From IMG/VR virus record IMGVR_UViG_3300025305_000186, positions 1-20,825 of that record: a stretch of DNA of 20,825 nt; one strand, given 5' to 3'. This DNA comes from a virus. Numbering within the stretch: position 1 is the first letter of the stretch; every line of letters begins with the position of its first letter. The notes beneath the pieces are model-generated. The model worked only from the letters and a program-made list of their open reading frames with translations, did not search any database and was not told the DNA's origin. The position numbers were made by a program, and so were the translations under genes. Below, in pieces: positions 20 through 10,890 of the stretch.

Positions 20-907
20 CTATCCGAACAGGTTATCTAAATCGCCATCCAGACCTAAGATTCCATCAAACAAAGCGTTATCTGGAGTCTTCTCTTCGGT
101 CTGGCTGTTAGCTCCACTAGCGGTTGTCGGTATGTTCCTGACATTCTTCATCTGGTCCAACATATCATTTTTAGCAGATGTGATAACATTAGCATTAGCC
201 TGATCACGATTCAATAGATAATCAATGTCTTCAAGAGTAAGCACATGTTTCTGTGCTTTTTCTTTAAAGGCATCAAACTGTTCATCAGTCATGCCCTTCT
301 TTTCTCTGAATTCATTTTCCATTGTTTTCTGTGAAGCCTGTTGCTGCATTTTAGCTGCATTAGCTTTTTCAGTTTGTACTATTTGTCCCACTCTATGCTT
401 AACGACCTTGTCTACCTGAGCATTCAAGACTTTTGCTGAATCAGAGTCGGGTTCTGTCATTGCTTCATTAGCATCAAACATAAAATCCTCATCTAATCCA
501 AACTGCTCTTGTACACTCTTGGGAGTACTACCTCCATTGACCAGATACTCACGAACATGCTCAACTAGCCCGCTATCGTTTTTCATTGCCTCAAGGACAG
601 GTACAAAAGGTTCCACCTCTTTATACTTGTCTCTCAGCTTAACGGCTTCACGACTACTATCTTTGTAGCGTTTTTTATAGGGATTACCGTCATCATCCCA
701 ACCCACATTATCGGAGCCAACAGTTTCTTGCTGGGTTACCTGCTCGGTGCCAACTTCCTGTCGGGTTGCCTCAGTGTTATCATCGGCAATTACGCCATTT
801 ACATTTTCTTCTAGAGCTTCAAAAAAGCCCTCAGAGGAGCCAAAAACTTCACTTTCAGCTTGATCAGCTGTCGGTATTGCTTCTGGGTTGCCTGCTGTTT
901 CTTCCAT
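20..907 (-). CDS. Probable capsid scaffolding protein
   Basis: I infer an internal scaffold that guides procapsid assembly and is lost before DNA packaging. The 295-aa product is strongly acidic and hydrophilic, has no membrane segment, and is rich in Gln, Asp and Glu. A charged helical stretch lies at about residues 155-250. The C-terminus is a short acidic and hydrophobic tail (ILGLDGDLDNLFG). Phage scaffolds have this composition and usually sit between the portal and major capsid genes, and this gene follows the portal by 29 bases. The ATG is preceded by AGGAG at good spacing. No catalytic motif is visible. It could instead be another head-assembly protein. The major capsid gene would be expected just left of the window. 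Confidence 0.6.
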   Translation of the reverse strand: MEETAGNPEAIPTADQAESEVFGSSEGFFEALEENVNGVIADDNTEATRQEVGTEQVTQQETVGSDNVGWDDDGNPYKKRYKDSSREAVKLRDKYKEVEPFVPVLEAMKNDSGLVEHVREYLVNGGSTPKSVQEQFGLDEDFMFDANEAMTEPDSDSAKVLNAQVDKVVKHRVGQIVQTEKANAAKMQQQASQKTMENEFREKKGMTDEQFDAFKEKAQKHVLTLEDIDYLLNRDQANANVITSAKNDMLDQMKNVRNIPTTASGANSQTEEKTPDNALFDGILGLDGDLDNLFG

Positions 908-936
908 TCTATTCTCCTATACTTTTGTTAATGTTA

Positions 937-3231
937 CTACTTTTTATTACTACCTTGCAAATTCTTTTTTGCAAACTGTAATTCTCTTGTTAAATCTTTC
1001 TTTGTAGAGTCTACCTCATTAGACATTACATTCTGTAGAAGCTTCTGCTTTGCTTCTGTTGAACGATAGGAATCCTTCATATCACCCTTGACTTCTTCCT
1101 TCTTTTTAGTGATCTCCATCTCAGCCTGCATGACCTTACCCTTAATTCCAGCCTGTACCAATTGTCTCTCAAGAGTTTCAATAGTACCTTCCTTATCTTT
1201 CAATGCTTCTTCCATCTGTCCCAACTGACCTTGTAATTGAGCATAAAGACTCTTACGCTTTGCTATCTGCTCTTTGTTTCTTACATCAGTTTCAGCAAGA
1301 ACTGCAATATCATCTATGACACCAAACTGCATAAGTTCCTTCAGTTCAGCAAGATATGCCCACCTATTTACTGGAAGCGTAGAACCAGCAACTATTCTTA
1401 CATCAAACTTAGCTGCCTGATAATCCATTGACTTCCCTATAGCCTGTCCCATATCATTATAGATTGGAATATTCAATTCCTGCTCACGCTGTTCCTGAAT
1501 AGCTGAAGGCTGTATAATTCTAAATCTTTTATTTGCACTATATACAGATTGGGATACTTGCATGATTACTTTCCCCAACTGCCTTAATGCTGGTTCAATG
1601 GAATGCTTCATCCATTGTTTAATTCTCCTGGTCCCATATTCATCTAATGCTAGCATACCCCTGAATGTCTCATGCTGTTGCTGAGTATCTCCCTGCATTG
1701 AAGAATAAATTCCAGCTAAGTATTCCATATCTGCTTTCCCCTGCTGAACAACAGAAAAGAATGCATTTGATAATGGAGCTGGCATGACTGGAGTAGGAGG
1801 AGCAGATCCTGGTCTAATAGGAAGTAATGCTCCTGGAGAAGAAGAATACTGTTCCCATAATTCTGGATCTATAGAACCCTCTTCATATAACCACCTAAGT
1901 GAAGATCCTAAAGATGCATTATGAACCATTATCTGGTGAGACTTGTTTATCTCTTTCTGCTTTCCTACCAGAGGAGCAACTGCAGATACTGGATATGGAG
2001 TTCCAGTCCATTTGTAATGAAATGGAATTACAGGATAATCAACTATATTCTCTGGGTATACTATCTCAGAAAGCAACTTATCACCTGCAACAATAGTCTG
2101 CCTTATTCTTATACCATAAAACTGTACACTGTCAACAACAGACTCCTGAAAAGCTTTATCCTTTAGAAGTATATTATATTCCTTCTCTGATATGATCTTA
2201 TTCTCAATCTGGGAAGCTGCAGCTTGTAACTGACTCATATATTCCTGCTCTGCAGCCTGTAACTGCTGTTGCATCATTTCCTGAGCTTTCTGCATCTCAA
2301 GCTCATATCTTTCAGGAATCATCTTCCCTTCCTGAACTGCTTGCTCCATTTGTTGCTGTTGTTCCAAAAGTCCAACTTCCATCTCAGCAGCCATTTCCTT
2401 CATTTTCACCTGTACCTGCTGCTGTATTGCCTTCAGCTGCTCCTTATTCGGAGGTAGTCTGTAAAATACATTTACATAAGAAATCTTTATCTTTTCATAG
2501 AGCTCAAATAATTCTAATGTCTGCTCCTGCTGTCCAGTTGCATCTATCCCCATATCCTCTGCAGTAGAATCATCTTTCAAGAATAGTTTCTGCTCACTGT
2601 CTGAAATAGCTCTTTCTGAGTAAGAATGGTCTCCATCTAAAGAGGAAGCACTATTTATCTTTCTCTTATATTGAGGGAAAAGCTTTATAACATGACTCTT
2701 TGGAAGCACCTTCCTTATTAAAACATATGATGCATCCTTGAACATCATATCTCTTGACTTTGGATCTACATATATATCAAAAGGTTCTGGCTGCTGAAGA
2801 ACAACCTCTCCCATTCCATTGTCCATATCTGAATCCACAGTAACAAGTATGTATCCTATAGACTTACAGATAGCATCATTTATCGCATTTGAATAAAGTG
2901 CGGAACCATCTGAAAGATGCCAGATATAATCTGTCAAATCTGAGAATACAGCCGCTACATCAGAGTCACTGCCTTCAACACCAATAGCCTGCCACCTTGG
3001 ACTATTTGCAGTTGCGTAGAAATTAAGCATCTCAACAACAGGCAGTATCCTATTAATTGTAAATGTAGGCATACCTTGTTCCTGCAAAGATGTTTTCTCA
3101 TTCTGGGATAACTGCTCATCATGAGCAAACTCGTACCCCTTCTGATTCACATACTGCCACTGGCTTCGTGTCCAGTTATTAGACATATTGTATAGTTCTC
3201 TTATCTGGTCTGCTTTTTTCTTCTTAGGCAT
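937..3231 (-). CDS. Portal protein, P22-like
   Basis: This is the dodecameric ring at the capsid vertex through which DNA enters and leaves. The 764 residues fit the long P22-type podovirus portals. The N-terminal part has the usual pattern: an FTINRI segment near 57-62, SPRW near 77-80, then a stem region with PEPFDIYVDPKSRD near 148-161. Residues 262-350 form a very Gln-rich, Glu-rich coiled coil. A second charged coiled coil near 665-735 could correspond to the C-terminal barrel of this family. The start ATG shares a base with the TAA of the small upstream gene (TAATG), so translation is coupled. The neighbours, TerL upstream and a scaffold candidate downstream, agree with the call. Confidence 0.85.
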   Translation of the reverse strand: MPKKKKADQIRELYNMSNNWTRSQWQYVNQKGYEFAHDEQLSQNEKTSLQEQGMPTFTINRILPVVEMLNFYATANSPRWQAIGVEGSDSDVAAVFSDLTDYIWHLSDGSALYSNAINDAICKSIGYILVTVDSDMDNGMGEVVLQQPEPFDIYVDPKSRDMMFKDASYVLIRKVLPKSHVIKLFPQYKRKINSASSLDGDHSYSERAISDSEQKLFLKDDSTAEDMGIDATGQQEQTLELFELYEKIKISYVNVFYRLPPNKEQLKAIQQQVQVKMKEMAAEMEVGLLEQQQQMEQAVQEGKMIPERYELEMQKAQEMMQQQLQAAEQEYMSQLQAAASQIENKIISEKEYNILLKDKAFQESVVDSVQFYGIRIRQTIVAGDKLLSEIVYPENIVDYPVIPFHYKWTGTPYPVSAVAPLVGKQKEINKSHQIMVHNASLGSSLRWLYEEGSIDPELWEQYSSSPGALLPIRPGSAPPTPVMPAPLSNAFFSVVQQGKADMEYLAGIYSSMQGDTQQQHETFRGMLALDEYGTRRIKQWMKHSIEPALRQLGKVIMQVSQSVYSANKRFRIIQPSAIQEQREQELNIPIYNDMGQAIGKSMDYQAAKFDVRIVAGSTLPVNRWAYLAELKELMQFGVIDDIAVLAETDVRNKEQIAKRKSLYAQLQGQLGQMEEALKDKEGTIETLERQLVQAGIKGKVMQAEMEITKKKEEVKGDMKDSYRSTEAKQKLLQNVMSNEVDSTKKDLTRELQFAKKNLQGSNKK

Positions 3232-4552: not shown

Positions 4553-6108
4553 TATGCTACTACCCAATCTCTTGCTTTAGGTTTCTTTTTATACCAATTA
4601 CCCTCTTTATCCTGACCTGCTGCCATGGGAGGATTAGCAAACTTGACTGCATAAGCAAGAGCATCTATGGTGTCATCGTGAGCCATTCTTGGTCCAAATG
4701 TTGTTATCTCTCTATGCAGATCATACTGAGTCTTCTTCAGATGTATCTGCCCTATTGAAAATCTTTGAGCTAATATCTCCTGTATCCTGTCCCTTTTGCT
4801 CATCCTGTTCCCTGGCTTTTCTGCCCTGTATCCAATAGAGAAGTCATTTCTTCTTCTCATCTCAGAGTTCAATGCTTGGAAGATAGGTTTGCTCATTGAG
4901 GTATCTTCTACCGTAAAGAGACTTGGTTTGAAACTTTTTGCATATTGGAACATATAATCTACTATACCCAACCTATGCTCTCCTGGGATTCCCAATACTG
5001 GTATAGACTGCTTTCGTATGTAATCAAGTACATAAATATTATTATCTGGAGTTACTGCTACAGCAATCATGACTGAAAAGTCAGAATCTCTTCTGGCAGA
5101 ATCTGTAGCTGGATCCACTCCTACAAATACATTGCATGGCAGAAATCCATTATTATTTGCATCTATAAAAGAAAGTCCAGTTTCCTCATCCAATTTGAAT
5201 GATCCATCCCAAAACTTTATGTGATCCCTTGTAAAGATAGCATCCTCTGCACTTTGAACCTCCATCATGTATTCCTGATAGAACTTCTGTGGAGAGCCTG
5301 AATCCTGGTAGAATTTCTTCTTTCTCTCCATCTCCTTCATTCCAAACCAATCTGGCCAGAGTGGTGTCCCATCATCCTGCAATGCTTTGTATGTTATGAC
5401 CTTCCAGCTAAATGGATTACCCCTCATGTTTGCCTGCTGATATCCAACAAGAATCTTCTGTATAAATGAATCATAGTGCACTGGAGTTCCATTTATTCTT
5501 AATCTTCCTGTTTTTGGTTCAAGTGCTGGAAACACGACTGCCGTGACCAGATTCGATATTTTAGAACGACTCTCAGGCGTAATAGTGTTATTCTCGTCTT
5601 CAAAATCATCCAGCACAATGAGATCATACCTTTTATGAAGCTTTGCCCCACCTCTTATCCCCGAAAGATTAGACTTAGAAATGAGTTTGCACCCATTTGT
5701 GAGTTCAATATCATCCTCAGTCCACTTTCTACCTTTTAAGTCTCCAAAGTAATATCTCACTTTATCATTAAATTCAAGGTGATACTTAATATAATCAAGA
5801 TTAGGGACAGAAATCTTTGAGCTTGCTGCCACCCAACCATAAAACAATGGCTCTTGAGTAAAGAGAAAATCATGAAGGATACTGCACTTAGTAAGAACAG
5901 TCTTCCCATGCCCTCTTGGTAAAATAACTGCCAACTGTCTAACACTTGCATCATCAACTGCATCTGCTACCTCATAATGAAAGAATGGAGTCTCACTTCT
6001 CTGAAAGTCGTCTGGAAGAAATAACTTGCCAAAAGCTATTAAGTCCTCATATGCTAACTTTAACTGTTCTTCAGCTTTCGTTATGTTCTGGGTATTGATG
6101 TTCGCCAT
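4552..6108 (-). CDS. terL: Terminase large subunit (TerL)
   Basis: This is the packaging motor: an ATPase pumps DNA into the procapsid and a nuclease cuts concatemers. All core motifs are visible in the 518 residues. Walker A is PRGHGKT at 64-70, Walker B is LIVLDDFED at about 163-171, and the coupling motif INGTP is at 205-209. The RNase H-like nuclease has GVDPATDS (Asp332), TVEDTS (Glu401) and HDDTIDALAYAV (Asp478/Asp479). The length is normal. The ribosome site is a weak AAGAAG. The first 38 bases overlap the end of the small gene upstream, and the stop overlaps the start of the next gene. It acts with the TerS candidate and the portal in this operon. Confidence 0.95.
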   Translation of the reverse strand: MANINTQNITKAEEQLKLAYEDLIAFGKLFLPDDFQRSETPFFHYEVADAVDDASVRQLAVILPRGHGKTVLTKCSILHDFLFTQEPLFYGWVAASSKISVPNLDYIKYHLEFNDKVRYYFGDLKGRKWTEDDIELTNGCKLISKSNLSGIRGGAKLHKRYDLIVLDDFEDENNTITPESRSKISNLVTAVVFPALEPKTGRLRINGTPVHYDSFIQKILVGYQQANMRGNPFSWKVITYKALQDDGTPLWPDWFGMKEMERKKKFYQDSGSPQKFYQEYMMEVQSAEDAIFTRDHIKFWDGSFKLDEETGLSFIDANNNGFLPCNVFVGVDPATDSARRDSDFSVMIAVAVTPDNNIYVLDYIRKQSIPVLGIPGEHRLGIVDYMFQYAKSFKPSLFTVEDTSMSKPIFQALNSEMRRRNDFSIGYRAEKPGNRMSKRDRIQEILAQRFSIGQIHLKKTQYDLHREITTFGPRMAHDDTIDALAYAVKFANPPMAAGQDKEGNWYKKKPKARDWVVA

Positions 6109-6280
6109 ACTTCTTCTTTAAAAACTTTACAAATTTCTTTTCACTCTTAGTGAAGTCAATATAATCCTTTAAACTGGTACTTAATACCTGTAAACCTGAA
6201 AACAAGTAGTCTAAACGCTCATTTACACCCTTTATTTCACGGATAATGTCATGTTTTGACACTACTCTACCATTTTTCAT
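6071..6280 (-). CDS. Small helical protein upstream of TerL
   Basis: The 69-aa protein is charged and predicted mostly helical (IIREIKGVNERLDYLFSGL and following), with a Lys-rich C-terminus. It could form a short coiled coil. It overlaps the start of terL by 38 bases, so the two are probably translationally coupled. No clear Shine-Dalgarno sequence precedes its ATG. Reading the minus strand, TTGTAA and CATATT lie 17 bases apart just before the ATG, so a promoter giving a nearly leaderless mRNA is conceivable. Function unknown. Confidence 0.6.
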   Translation of the reverse strand: MKNGRVVSKHDIIREIKGVNERLDYLFSGLQVLSTSLKDYIDFTKSEKKFVKFLKKKYGEHQYPEHNES

Positions 6281-6336
6281 GCTAGAATATGCAAAATATA
6301 AAGTTTATTTACAAAAAGAATCTTTTAAATTGTATT

Positions 6337-6696
6337 TTATCTATCTCCAGACAAAGGTACAGGATCTGGATACAGGTCTTCATCAGTTGTAGGATGCTCA
6401 CGTTGATACTGCTTCATAGCCTCTAGCTCAGACATCATTATAGCATCTTCCCCATGAAGTTCTATTAATCTATTCATCCTTCTCTCCTCAGTCCAGTAGT
6501 AATTGTCATAGAAACTATTTATAGCTTTAATAGTTTTTCCTCCATAGAAACCATCTGCCTTTAGTTCCTTACTCTGAGGATAGTACTGGAGAAGTTCCTG
6601 TGCTTTCTTGACATTTGCATTTGTCATTCCATCCTTAGTCTTTAAGGTCTCAAGTGCTTTGTGGACTTTCTCACTATATTCTCCTGTTAACGGCAT
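6337..6696 (-). CDS. Protein with a peptidoglycan-binding-like repeat
   Basis: Residues 29-62 of this 119-aa protein read NVKKAQELLQ...LKADGFYGGKTIKAINSFY. That follows the PG_binding_1 pattern: V-x-x-x-Q-x-x-L, then DG-x-x-G-x-x-T-x-x-A-x-x-x-F. The domain usually anchors enzymes or virion proteins to cell wall. Here it has no attached hydrolase. The remainder is acidic and helical and ends in a Pro-rich tail. AGGAG precedes the ATG at good spacing. It may be a virion protein that touches the cell wall at entry. The match is by motif only. Confidence 0.6.
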   Translation of the reverse strand: MPLTGEYSEKVHKALETLKTKDGMTNANVKKAQELLQYYPQSKELKADGFYGGKTIKAINSFYDNYYWTEERRMNRLIELHGEDAIMMSELEAMKQYQREHPTTDEDLYPDPVPLSGDR

Positions 6697-6722: not shown

Positions 6723-7271
6723 TTAAAAATCGTTTATATCTATTCCAAATTTTTTAAGTGTTTTCTCAGCCTTCATCATATCCTCAAATAACTTACGGCT
6801 TTTCTCTGTTTTATGTTTAATAATATTTTTTATCATATTTGTTTCTTCAATTTTTCTCCCTGTGCCTCTGGAATGCATACCTAACGCACGACCACTAGTT
6901 CTAGCTGTATGACTCCCATAACTAATCCACGTAGGTATATAATCCCCCTCCAACAATTTCTTCTGGACTGAGGATGGTAAAGAATTTACCCCTTTTTGTA
7001 TTCTCTTAGCTGTTGCAATCTGCCCAATAAAAGGTAGAACCGCAGTTAATGACAAAGCTGCATCTCCAAATTCTCCCTCAAGAGCATATAGTGTTGCATC
7101 GGCTAAATCAGCTATATTACCATAAGCAGGAGTCATACCTGCTGCCATCAATGCATTATGTATATTTTTAGTTGATGCCTCTTCTTTCTTAGGGGGAAAT
7201 AAATCTACTGCAGTCTTATCAGCAGCAGTGGTCATTAGATCAAATGCCCTGTCATTCACCTGATTAGCCAC
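6723..7271 (-). CDS. Protein with a pre-toxin-like hydrophobic motif
   Basis: The 182-aa protein is not firmly assigned. Residues 45-90 read GMTPAYGNIADLADATLYAL, then EGEFGDAALSLTAVLPFIGQ. This resembles the linker that precedes toxin domains in bacterial polymorphic toxins (P-x-x-G-x-x-A-D...EG-x-x-x-D-A-A-L-S...P-x-x-G). The C-terminal 90 residues are basic (SYGSHTARTSGRALGMHS, then a Lys-rich helix) and show no nuclease motif I can name. The GTG start has AGGAG seven bases upstream and overlaps the TerS-like gene by eight bases. It could be a virion-carried effector or a membrane-active structural protein. Confidence 0.6.
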   Translation of the reverse strand: MANQVNDRAFDLMTTAADKTAVDLFPPKKEEASTKNIHNALMAAGMTPAYGNIADLADATLYALEGEFGDAALSLTAVLPFIGQIATAKRIQKGVNSLPSSVQKKLLEGDYIPTWISYGSHTARTSGRALGMHSRGTGRKIEETNMIKNIIKHKTEKSRKLFEDMMKAEKTLKKFGIDINDF

Positions 7272-7989
7272 TCTCTATCTCCTTAGGTCTCTCTACATCT
7301 TCCAGCTGCTTATCACTAAACCCTTGAAACTGTATACCAGTCAACTGCGTAAGCTTGGCTGTAGACTTGTCTTCAAGGTCTAATATATCAGATAACTTGA
7401 ACAAAGCCTTCAATTTAGTGTCATCTTTCTCTGAGAGGTCTGCAACTGCCTTTATACCTTCAAGTATGCTCTCTTGGGTGATTCCGAGCTTTTCCAGTAT
7501 AGGTTCTAGTTCTTTCTTCATAGCTTTCCTTATTCTTGTATATTTAATAAGTTCCGAACTCTTAAAATTAGCGTAATGAGGATCATTGGTAGGGAATGCC
7601 TTTATATAAGCTTCCTGTGGGCTCATGCCTGAAGTTACATAATTAACAAAAAGACTTTCATGCTTATTCAGTTTATTCCTCACTGGTGTCTTAGCATTGT
7701 TACCACTGATAGTATATATGTTCTCTCTCCTAGAGGAATCTACCTTTCCTGCAGATAAGTAAGTACCAGTACAGGTCCCTATATACTTTACAATCCTATT
7801 CTTACCCTTGGCTCTCTTTAACTCGCCTGACCTTAACACTTCCATATAACAGCCATCGTGTGCTTCTATCCATTGACCTACCTTGGCCTTCTTGATGTCA
7901 TTAGTTATATTGTTTAGTATATTGGCAGGCAATTCAGCCTCTTCCTCGTATACAGTGTGTGATAAGCCGTTAACTTTGTAATGTCTCAT
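7264..7989 (-). CDS. Probable terminase small subunit (TerS)
   Basis: TerS recognises the packaging site and delivers DNA to TerL. Residues from about 107 on read LNKHESLFVNYVTSGMSPQE, then AYIKAF and further helices. This matches the helix-turn-helix of TerS families (L-x-x-x-x-x-x-F-V-x-x-Y-x-x-x-G-x-x-x-x-x-A-Y). A helical segment follows at about 160-215, suited to oligomerisation. The N-terminal 105 residues form an extra domain, partly beta-rich (VKYIGTCTGTYL), that is uncommon in short TerS proteins. No clear ribosome site precedes the ATG. Position at the head of the packaging operon fits. TerS sequences are poorly conserved, so the call rests on the HTH and context. Confidence 0.7.
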   Translation of the reverse strand: MRHYKVNGLSHTVYEEEAELPANILNNITNDIKKAKVGQWIEAHDGCYMEVLRSGELKRAKGKNRIVKYIGTCTGTYLSAGKVDSSRRENIYTISGNNAKTPVRNKLNKHESLFVNYVTSGMSPQEAYIKAFPTNDPHYANFKSSELIKYTRIRKAMKKELEPILEKLGITQESILEGIKAVADLSEKDDTKLKALFKLSDILDLEDKSTAKLTQLTGIQFQGFSDKQLEDVERPKEIESG

Positions 7990-8008
7990 AGTAAGCGTAA
8001 GCGGCTTG

Positions 8009-8194
8009 TCAAGTTAGGGCTATATCTGTGGAACCCATTTGCATTTCCTCAATCATGTCTTCTTCATCTATTAAGTCTACAAGGTCTGTATCACTAACTT
8101 GAAAATGCATATCCTCATCTTCAATCTCCTCAGATATGTCATATATCTCACCATTTCTCTTACTATATCTTATCCTTAGTGTGTAGATCTGCAT
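8009..8194 (-). CDS. Small acidic protein, first gene of the leftward operon
   Basis: The 61-aa product begins with a short beta-like segment (MQIYTLRIRYSKRNGEIYDI) and continues as a very acidic stretch full of Asp, Glu and Met. It is unrecognised. There is no good Shine-Dalgarno sequence. It ends with TGA and leaves 19 bases to the TerS candidate. The acidic character would suit DNA mimicry or binding a basic partner, but nothing proves that. Confidence 0.5.
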   Translation of the reverse strand: MQIYTLRIRYSKRNGEIYDISEEIEDEDMHFQVSDTDLVDLIDEEDMIEEMQMGSTDIALT

Positions 8195-8408
8195 ATACTA
8201 ATCTATAACTAAGCTGATATCATGTGAAAGTTAAATTATATATTTGGGAAGTATATGGACTTATCCCTGGAGAGGCAGTAGCCAATTCTTGGGTTTCACA
8301 CCTTGTATTTCGTCAGAGCCAGTTCCATTTTTAGTCTTGGACTAAGCTCTACCCATACTCTGCTTTATAACAAGGCTGGTTTCGACAATATCGGAGAAAA
8401 CTCAAGGA

Positions 8409-8433
8409 GAACATGTTCCTGTAAATTCAGGAA
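8409..8433. repeat. Two overlapping palindromes, operator-like
   Basis: GAACATGTTC is a perfect ten-base palindrome at 8409-8418. It overlaps TTCCTG (8416-8421), which is mirrored by CAGGAA (8428-8433) across six bases. Such paired symmetric sites often bind dimeric repressors. They could equally be hairpins in a plus-strand RNA ending at the terminator near 8629. Confidence 0.5.
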
Positions 8434-8530
8434 ACCCCTATCAAATCCAACGTCTGACCCCTTAGGTAGAACTAATGCTAGGGTACCTACTGGGTGATTA
8501 TTATTATTATCTAATAACATTGTCATGGGG

Positions 8531-8580
8531 AATATAGCATAACTTTAGACAATATGCAAAAGGTTTGAAAAATATAGCAT
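8531..8580. repeat. Direct repeat AATATAGCAT, two copies 40 bases apart
   Basis: AATATAGCAT occurs at 8531-8540 and 8571-8580. Each copy is followed within three bases by TTTAG. The 40-base period is close to four helical turns, so a protein could bind both copies on one face of the DNA. The sequences also look like weak -10 boxes. Confidence 0.45.
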
Positions 8581-8608
8581 TTTAGTGTGTGGCCTTTCTC
8601 CCATGGGT

Positions 8609-8629
8609 ACCCCCCTATCGGGGGGTTTT
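8609..8629 (+). terminator. Rightward intrinsic terminator
   Basis: Six C, loop TATC and six G are extended by one A-T pair, then TTTTC follows. The U-tract lies only on the plus-strand side. It ends a plus-strand transcript, yet no plus-strand gene precedes it in the window. It may end an unannotated small RNA or insulate the promoter that follows. Confidence 0.75.
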
Positions 8630-8632
8630 CGT

Positions 8633-8683
8633 AATAACGATTACGTTATTTACAATTTGTATTATTAGATTATATTATTGTAA
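8633..8683 (+). promoter_or_regulatory. Promoter of the rightward operon with nested inverted repeats
   Basis: TTTACA (8649-8654) and TATATT (8671-8676) are 16 bases apart, a good sigma70 match. The core is bracketed by a perfect inverted repeat, TTACAAT at 8650-8656 and ATTGTAA at 8677-8683. A second inverted repeat, AATAAC/GTTATT, lies just upstream at 8633-8650. A repressor on either site would block polymerase. The predicted start near 8683 leaves a leader of about 35 bases before the first gene. Confidence 0.65.
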
Positions 8684-8717
8684 GTAATTACTTAACAACT
8701 AACTTAGGAGACATACT

Positions 8718-9077
8718 ATGTCACTTATAAAGAATCAACTCACAGATGATGAGTTACTAAAGCTAGCTGAGCAGCTGGCTCCACTTATTATCCCAGCAGC
8801 CATAAAGGCTGACACACCTAAAGAACCTGATGCTATTAATGAAGACGAACTGCCGCCTGGCATGGGTGTAGTTAATGGTGAAGTAGTATACACTGACCCA
8901 GCAGTAAAGGTAGCTGATGAGGTTATTGGCAAAGCTTTAAAGTCTTTACCTATGGGAACTGCTACCTATGTCGGAAGACGTGGTACTACTGTAGTCAATC
9001 ACTCCAAAGAATCCATTGATGCTGTTGAATCATGGAAGAAGAGGAGAAACCAATGGCAAACTAGGAGTAAACTGTAA
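8718..9077 (+). CDS. Uncharacterised first rightward gene
   Basis: The 119-aa product is unrecognised. The N-terminus is helical (TDDELLKLAEQLAPLIIPAA), followed by a Pro/Asp/Glu-rich linker. The segment PPGMGVVNGEVVYTDP has a beta-turn look. The C-terminus is basic and aromatic (ESWKKRRNQWQTRSKL), which could touch nucleic acid. A clear TAGGAG precedes the ATG. The gene stands alone between a strong promoter and a strong terminator, so it is probably an abundant early product. A regulatory or host-takeover role is a guess from position. Confidence 0.75.
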   Translation: MSLIKNQLTDDELLKLAEQLAPLIIPAAIKADTPKEPDAINEDELPPGMGVVNGEVVYTDPAVKVADEVIGKALKSLPMGTATYVGRRGTTVVNHSKESIDAVESWKKRRNQWQTRSKL

Positions 9078-9099
9078 ACTTTACGCTGTATCCGTAACG

Positions 9100-9140
9100 A
9101 GAGTGGCAACGCTAGTGCATGAGTGTTGTCACTCTTTCTT
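9100..9140 (+). terminator. Intrinsic terminator after the first rightward gene
   Basis: A 14-pair stem (9100-9113 with 9122-9135, two G-U pairs, loop AGTGCATG) is followed by TTCTT and further T-rich sequence. It separates the 119-aa gene from the structured non-coding region to the right. Confidence 0.8.
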
Positions 9141-9224
9141 GGTTTAGTCTTTATTTTAACTAACTATCATATATACATAACATATACATACTACCAACTT
9201 ATACTCAACAACTTGACAAATTCC

Positions 9225-10040
9225 CTATGGTGGGGGAGTAGTGAAAGTGGGATATCTACTATAAAGCAGGTAGCTGGTTAAAGACAGCAGAAAGTCCTGC
9301 CTATCAACAAACATATGATAAGAAATAGTCCTGGCAAGGTTGCACCCACAAAAATTTTATATACGCTGATAGCCCTTTGAGCTTAAGCCACTACAACTCT
9401 TGAGATACCAATGGCTTCTTAAGATAAACTTAAACATAACTGATGGTTTGAGGTGATACAGTCACTCATTGTTTAGGTATTGAATTGGTGTGTTATTAGC
9501 ATAGGAACAGGGAGAGCATACATAAACTACATGGTGTAAATGGTCTATGTGTGTTCTCTCTAATTTTTGAAAGTTTTTACACCTTTTGACAGTTGTCACG
9601 ATAGGCTCCCTCTAACAGCTAGGTTCATAGCCTAGTACAGTGTTAGTCTCACTGGACTGTCGAATATTTCTTTGGCACTCTAATTCATATCAATCTTAAG
9701 CTATCAGGAGTATCAAGTTTATGGTCCAGTTGGTTGCTGGTTAGACTACTGTAAATATGTATGAATGATAGTGATTGACGCTATTCTTTATAGCGAACCT
9801 GAGTGCCAATATCTTTACAATAGACACCACCCGCATGGCAGAGATTAAGTTCGTCTGTAGAGGGAGAGAATATGAAGATATTCTTCAGTCACGTGCCTTG
9901 ATGGTTTTGTAGCCACTTTAAATAATTACTGATAGGTAGACAGAGTGTGGTATAAACTGTGAGGGATTGCTTAACTTGAGCGAGATGACATAGGCAGTTG
10001 CGAAGATATGAACCCTAGCAATACCACGTCTATTGTAATA
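9225..10040 (+). ncRNA. Giant structured RNA candidate (GOLLD/ROOL-like layout)
   Basis: About 930 bases between a terminator and the next gene lack coding potential but are full of nested helices. Examples: 9266-9270/9296-9300 around 9273-9276/9285-9288; 9382-9390/9412-9423 (bulged); 9511-9524/9546-9561; 9588-9593/9656-9661; 9612-9617/9641-9646 around 9619-9623/9631-9635; 9672-9680/9801-9809 (nine perfect pairs) around 9779-9784/9790-9795; 9815-9825/10028-10038 (eleven perfect pairs) around 9947-9953/10021-10027 and 9867-9873/9878-9884. Loop bases 9533-9540 pair perfectly with 9576-9583, and 9955-9959/9995-9999 crosses 9962-9965/10013-10016, giving two possible pseudoknots. G-U pairs occur in the plus sense, supporting that strand. 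Size, phage context and a tRNA-like neighbour recall GOLLD and ROOL RNAs, which form multimeric cages. The ends are uncertain and family membership is not shown. Confidence 0.7.
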
Positions 10041-10071
10041 CTTTTAATAAACCTCTTGAAGGGAGGATAAT

Positions 10072-10338
10072 ATGTGGACAATAAATCAGAAAGAGCTCAC
10101 AATGAGTCGGAAGATAATTAACTATTTTCGTACTATTACTTCTGAAGAGTTTCTTGGATGGTTAGTCTTAAGGGCAGTACAAGAGCTTATCAAAGTTATC
10201 CTGGGTCGTAAAGATAGCAATGCTAATCTTATGGATGGTAATGCTGATAATTATCATGAGCTTGATGATATGGTTCTTGATAGTGATAATCAATATCTAG
10301 TGGAATTTGCTAAAAAACTATTGAGGTATGGGTCTTAA
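10072..10338 (+). CDS. Small protein after the large RNA
   Basis: The 88-aa product is unrecognised. An amphipathic helical N-terminal half (EEFLGWLVLRAVQELIKVIL) could sit on a membrane or dimerise. The C-terminal half is acidic (Asp/Asn-rich) and ends with a helix containing FAKKLLRY. The ATG at 10072 follows GGGAGG at correct spacing. A second Met at residue 11 has no ribosome site of its own. It lies about 30 bases after the structured RNA, so the two may share a transcript. Confidence 0.65.
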   Translation: MWTINQKELTMSRKIINYFRTITSEEFLGWLVLRAVQELIKVILGRKDSNANLMDGNADNYHELDDMVLDSDNQYLVEFAKKLLRYGS

Positions 10339-10521: not shown

Positions 10522-10553
10522 GTAGTAAAGCTCTAGTGCAAACTAGCCGTAAT

Positions 10554-10621
10554 ACAGAGATAGCGGTCGGTATAAATTACCACACCCAGACATATGTGCA
10601 AATTGTGGTCTCTGTTTTTTT
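10554..10621 (+). terminator. Long-stem intrinsic terminator
   Basis: ACAGAGA (10554-10560) pairs with TCTCTGT (10609-10615). An inner ACCACA/TGTGGT helix stacks on the 3' side, and seven T follow. It closes the transcription unit carrying the 88-aa and 55-aa genes and possibly the large RNA. Confidence 0.7.
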
Positions 10622-10652
10622 ATATTTGAACATGAGCACAGACCTCAAATGT

Positions 10653-10791
10653 TGGGTTAGGCTCATTAAAGGTTCGTGGATCGCTACCACAGCTTATGTT
10701 CAATAGTTTGCTGCTGATATCTCTAAGCATAGATATATGTTGAAGGCATGAGTCGCTGCAATACAAGGTTCGAATCCTTAATCTTAACCCA
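10653..10791 (+). ncRNA. tRNA-like RNA with a T-arm and extended core
   Basis: GGTTCGAATCC, the exact T-loop consensus, lies at 10767-10777 in an AAGG/CCTT stem. TGGGTTA (10653-10659) can pair with TAACCCA (10785-10791) as an acceptor-like helix. GGCTCA (10660-10665) can pair with TGAGTC (10749-10754), leaving the T-arm between the two, as in the tRNA-like half of tmRNA. Inside lie GTGG/CCAC around a seven-base loop and ATATCT/AGATAT. No normal D arm, anticodon arm, tag frame or encoded 3' CCA fits this fold. ATGAGC upstream (10632-10637) offers a competing pairing. It may be a decayed tRNA or a new tRNA-like element. It is bounded by terminators on both sides. Confidence 0.4.
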
Positions 10792-10833
10792 TGACTGGTA
10801 AATGGGGCCTGAAGTGTCAGTAGCAAAGAATTA

Positions 10834-10864
10834 TTAGGGATGATAGTTATATCCCTAAATTTTA
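10834..10864 (+). terminator. Probable intrinsic terminator after the tRNA-like RNA
   Basis: TTAGGGAT (10834-10841) pairs perfectly with ATCCCTAA (10851-10858) across nine bases, then ATTTTA follows. The U-tract is short, so termination may be partial. Confidence 0.55.
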
Positions 10865-10890
10865 CTTAACTAAAGAAGGGATAAATAAAG

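Follow-up and report, generated by a model that had tools for sequence, protein, structure and literature searches.

What occupies a long stretch without genes in the genome of a marine tailed phage, and is it an RNA of a known kind? The window analyzed here is a 20.8-kb IMG/VR virus record, in which an initial annotation had placed a giant structured RNA, either of the GOLLD/ROOL class or new, at 9225-10040. To our knowledge, the structures of these two large phage RNAs are solved and their function is not known.

Setting of the gene-free stretch

The minus-strand genes of the window include those for the portal and the large and small terminases, and the rightward genes are mostly small, with a ParB-like protein, an AAA/Sak4-like protein and a primase-helicase among their products. 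The large terminase (TerL) was less than 60% identical to that of every isolated phage in the collection; uncultured relatives of the phage were many. The intergenic segment between the leftward and rightward genes (7990-8717), which is kept in dozens of relatives (93% identity in contig L089 and 60-75% in most), probably serves as a divergent promoter or an origin.

The gene-free stretch is flanked by a 119-aa gene (8718-9077) and an 88-aa gene, neither of which could be assigned to a family; the product of the 88-aa gene had no match in Pfam or PHROG, and no relatives were confirmed with the 119-aa gene as bait. No plausible gene was found in 9123-10071, where the longest ORFs (45-52 aa) were unconvincing, so the original estimate of about 0.8 kb without genes held. 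A coding explanation for 9210-10040 was rejected, since the ORFs reach at most ~50 aa and the paired changes described below fit a structure. The 3' limit of the region was kept at 10040 and its start was better moved to about 9210.

The features of the locus are given in Table 1. The sigma-70-like match at the 5' end (9177-9205) lies 3' of the terminator-like hairpin. Many relatives have an element of the ACCAACTTATACTNAAC type next to their divergent promoter region, with its orientation unchanged, and it also stands upstream of GOLLD in L083, L051, L032, and L075. In 9 of the 19 records with enough downstream sequence, the 541-1115 nt after the promoter-like element held no accepted ORF, a count that includes the window, related records and the calls of a simple ORF caller. 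No terminator-like site was found between the RNA and the gene at 10072.

Table 1. Coordinates of features at the locus, as positions in the window.
Feature	Position	Strand	Description
Intrinsic-terminator-like hairpin	9099-9136	+	Ends upstream gene 8718-9077; 15-pair stem, loop of 8, T-rich tail
Conserved promoter-like element	9177-9209	+	ATAACA-17-TATACT inside ACATACTACCAACTTATACTCAAC
5' module block	9210-9575	+	366 nt; missing as one block in L089
Sub-domain D	9387-9498	+	Closing helix 9428-9436/9470-9478; inner hairpin 9449-9456/9462-9468
Long hairpin	9505-9583	+	Loop 9533-9540 complementary to 9576-9583; possible pseudoknot
Domain B	9586-9662	+	Closing helix 9588-9593/9656-9661; ~91% identical in L089
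Domain A	9672-9809	+	Closed by 9-bp helix; homologues L089, L007/L086, L088/L090/L091
Domain C	9815-10038	+	Closed by 11-bp helix; inner helix 9956-9959/9995-9998; homologues L024, L085, L092
First gene 3' of the RNA	10072-10338	+	88 aa; Shine-Dalgarno-like GGGAGG upstream

Conserved structure in domains A and C

Relatives collected by their terminases gave partial matches to the region, at 9814-10046 with L024 (81%) and at 9663-9786 with L007 (72%). Pattern scans of IMG/VR added L085, L086, L088, L089, L090, L091, and L092, and covariance models recovered the identical set of homologues and nothing further. Blastn searches of INPHARED phages with the RNAs of the window, L024 and L083 gave no match, and the patterns of domains A and C found none in bacterial and archaeal genomes. 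Covariation was evaluated on four distinct, partly related sequences per domain, drawn from fragmentary contigs. These were the window, L024, L085, and L092 for domain C and the window, L089, L007, and L088 for domain A, where L086 and L007 belong to one phage and L090 and L091 are nearly equal to L088. The domain A alignment was A3, and a model of poor structure (R2) was replaced by R3.

The two closing helices named in the initial annotation were exact, with 9 bp in domain A (9672-9680, TTGGCACTC, and 9801-9809, GAGTGCCAA) and 11 bp in domain C (9815-9825, TTACAATAGAC, and 10028-10038, GTCTATTGTAA), and both were kept by compensatory changes in the homologues. Ten of the 50 pairs in domain C were changed on both sides and 99.5% of the cells were paired; slid versions of the same domain paired 31-46%. 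Shuffles reached 10 two-sided pairs in 2 of 500 cases and the score in none of 500. The 10-pair part of its closing helix had five compensatory pairs, a value as high being found in 0 of 200 column shuffles. In domain A, two-sided changes affected 13 of 41 pairs and 95.1% of the cells were paired (27-44% in slid versions), and none of 500 shuffles reached its percentage paired, its pairs or its score. The core of domain A (ATCAATCTTAAGCTA ... GTGATTGACG ... CGAAC) was near-invariant, one hairpin ranged from ~15 to 60 nt among homologues, and the window and L007 sequences gave the same architecture when folded singly. At the level of comparative analysis, domains A and C are each shown to be a conserved RNA structure. 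G-U pairs far exceeded A-C pairs (22 to 4 in domain A, 27 to 0 in domain C and 49 to 4 over both), so the RNA is the plus strand, the sense first proposed for it.

The folding energies of the single sequence argued only weakly against chance. The whole region had a z-score of -3.2 (20 shuffles) or -2.4 (60 shuffles) on the plus strand and -1.9 on the minus strand, yet control windows inside genes had z-scores of -3.8 to -4.5. Sliding windows of 150 nt were unremarkable (mean z -1.0 inside the region and -0.5 outside), and 8% of shuffles contained an 11-bp helix and 19% contained two 9-bp helices. The comparison with shuffled sequences, by which the initial annotation proposed to judge the fold, gave a strong result for domain A alone (z -5.1) and a weak one for the whole region. 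Folding energy was rejected as proof of structure because gene windows were equally low, and the case for structure depends on the homologues because the energies are suggestive at most.

Two sets of crossing pairs had also been predicted. The complementarity between 9533-9540 (GGTGTAAA) and 9576-9583 (TTTACACC) was exact; none of the relatives found had a homologue with both segments. In the second set, in domain C, the helix 9956-9959/9995-9998 is real and covaries (three compensatory pairs), but a conserved crossing partner was absent in L024, L085, and L092, and a pseudoknot at this position is not supported by the alignment. The 5' block has little support from homologues, which comes from a single contig, L036, over ~110 nt. 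Sub-domain D matched L036 (6075-5965, minus strand) at 65% identity (E 1e-4), and a pattern search returned the known L036 contig only. By eye, L036 kept the closing helix with a different sequence (GTATAAC/GTTATAC) and had a TGA/TCA to TCA/TGA swap in the hairpin, in a comparison of two sequences only.

Gain, loss, and exchange of domains

The closest relative, L089, was 92.9% identical to the window over 7990-8717 and 93.2% over 7266-8651, and was without 9210-9575 and 9813-10040. Both are missing as blocks, so domain C has a natural empty site. The order in L089 was promoter, domain B directly after it, a block of 275 nt that the window does not have, domain A and the ribosome-binding site, and the shared domains B and A were about 91-92% identical to those of the window. 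AATATTT repeats border the L089 insertion.

Domain C of the window was 83.5-83.9% identical to that of its carriers, whose TerL proteins were 80.5, 60.7, and 30.1% identical. Domain C was 94.7% identical between L024 and L085, and their terL genes were 67.7% identical in nucleotides. Domain A also occurred in otherwise different RNAs, and in L007 it began directly after the stop codon of the preceding ORF. As far as alignments can reveal, these comparisons show whole domains being acquired, dropped and traded among phages both related and distant, and we infer that folded domains travel as units by recombination. Other noncoding blocks at the locus were mosaic too, such as one of 322 nt at 91% in L024 and L027.

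The noncoding blocks common to L024 (6655-7460) and L027 [292-2071 (-)], of 322 and 283 nt at 85-91% identity, are likely to be further RNA modules. In L085, near-identical direct repeats of ~75 nt (7463-7394 and 6714-6645, minus strand) bracket the noncoding RNA region with domain C.

No description of such modular RNAs was found in the part of the literature covered. A locus where large RNAs come and go among close relatives, and where folded domains are common to distant phages, suggests that viruses can assemble RNA tools from folded modules that they exchange. The natural variation allows clean tests, with close relatives that have or do not have one domain and a search for a partner per domain, and the two covariance models (domains A and C) can be used for searching any virome.

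Known RNAs and alternative explanations

The window had no match at the gathering score or at E ≤ 10 to any of 4227 Rfam families, including the conserved 416-position 3' region of GOLLD (RF02032) and ROOL (RF03087), and the domain carriers L007, L024, L085, and L086 had none at E 1. The GOLLD model matched 7 of 43 relatives' records, which makes it a working positive control; the ROOL model matched none of 44 records, a search in which no positive control rang. Judged by these models, the window RNA is not GOLLD and is not ROOL. The comparative evidence bears out the large structured noncoding RNA, or new one, of the initial annotation, and the proposed GOLLD/ROOL class is not supported.

GOLLD was common in the window's phage group, often with tRNA-Met in the region. 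The window RNA is phage-encoded. tRNA genes were absent from the window, but the setting that the initial annotation had guessed was a good one, since GOLLD and tRNA-Met were both present at the locus in relatives. A tRNA (Met, CAT where ARAGORN called it) was found in the corresponding noncoding region of L035, L039, L047, L049, L060, L064, and L075. GOLLD env-38 came from a marine sample and lies downstream of a Met-tRNA (PMC12286853), and may therefore derive from phages like the window group.

The nearest full-length relative, L083 (TerL 96% identical in amino acids), has the order promoter, ~530-nt noncoding stretch (6095-6620), 103-aa gene, 55-aa gene, GOLLD (7473-7887) and small genes. 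The window has promoter, RNA, 88-aa gene, 55-aa gene, noncoding stretch (10522-10890) and small genes, and its 55-aa gene looks homologous to that of L083 by eye. The window RNA therefore corresponds to the first noncoding slot of L083 and not to its GOLLD slot. The idea that it fills the GOLLD slot of its nearest relative was wrong; GOLLD lies two small genes downstream in L083. The L083 stretch 6095-6620 is unclassified and folds with -160 kcal/mol over 526 nt, and L083 7125-7900 holds GOLLD in the same transcription direction. These arrangements raise the question of whether GOLLD is just one of several RNAs that the locus can take.

We give a little over an even chance to the explanation that 9210-10040 is a large noncoding RNA of self-closed, interchangeable domains, transcribed from one promoter, with swappable binding modules that act in trans. 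Transcription would start from the conserved early-type promoter that opens the rightward unit, one transcript would span 9210-10040, and the RNA would be a series of four or more domains, each closed on itself and folding separately. The RNA may act in trans, each domain being a putative binding module for the ribosome, an RNA-binding protein or a defense component of host or phage, and module swapping could retune the RNA for its host, in the way that proteins are retuned by domain shuffling. The binding partner and the action of the RNA are guesses. The terminator followed by a promoter at the 5' end, with an element common to relatives, favors this explanation; the slight homology of the 5' block speaks against it. 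A wider reading, which we hold tentatively, is that this is a class of phage RNAs evolving like modular proteins: phages down to 30% terminase identity would exchange independently folding domains, with a separate partner for each, and the result would be a rapidly retunable RNA for host takeover or counter-defense.

The RNA may also be a leader of the downstream gene's mRNA because no terminator is present at its 3' end. A cis-acting 5' leader controlling the early operon from 10072, by attenuation or ligand sensing for example, would start at the promoter and run into the 10072 ribosome-binding site, a position like that of phage leader RNAs and riboswitch-like 5' UTRs. However, leaders are usually far shorter than these 830 nt with their several domains, domains come and go with no conserved expression platform next to the start of the gene, no Rfam family matched, and domain A in L007 follows a stop codon directly. 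We consider such a leader unlikely. An equal role to GOLLD or ROOL in an unrelated sequence, with the domains as arms of a self-assembling cage, is improbable as well. GOLLD forms a closed 14-mer cage and ROOL an octameric one (PMC12286853). The window RNA shares with GOLLD its large size, many helices, phage origin, separately folding regions and, in GOLLD-carrying relatives, a corresponding locus behind a matching promoter element, and the 5' region of GOLLD is also variable (PMC12286853). No record carrying domain A or C had GOLLD, which could be chance given fragmentary records and 7 positives in 44. The window RNA has no detectable homology to GOLLD in sequence or structure, its domains are exchanged singly and no universally conserved 3' region was seen. 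GOLLD and the window-equivalent stretch occupy separate slots in L083, which means that neither simply replaces the other, and the intertwined interfaces needed by cages would resist domain swapping. ROOL is similar in size class and phage origin but matched neither the window nor its relatives, and OLE, another large ornate bacterial RNA (PMC12286853), likewise had no Rfam match in the window.

That each domain is self-closed and recurs alone in other contexts, and that relatives have tRNA-Met and a Pistol ribozyme in the corresponding region, would suit a tandem of unrelated small RNAs cut from one transcript for separate jobs. This is quite unlikely, as Rfam identified no cleavage element in the window and the possible contact between 9533-9540 and 9576-9583 would join blocks into one molecule. 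A DNA element or recombination hot spot (an origin, packaging site or mosaic junction), with hairpins that have no RNA function, is already disfavored and seems very improbable: the high turnover, the adjoining divergent promoter region and the repeats at the L089 insertion agree with it, but the excess of G-U over A-C and the direction of the promoter speak for a plus-strand RNA.

A Pistol self-cleaving ribozyme was found inside the noncoding stretch of L071 (7317-7381, minus strand). The second noncoding stretch of the window (10522-10890, plus strand) is positioned where L083 has GOLLD. ARAGORN and Rfam called no tRNA in it; a tRNA T-arm-like hairpin, AAGGTTCGAATCCTT (10765-10779), lies inside its long closing helix (~10710-10838) and is conserved in L089 and L088.
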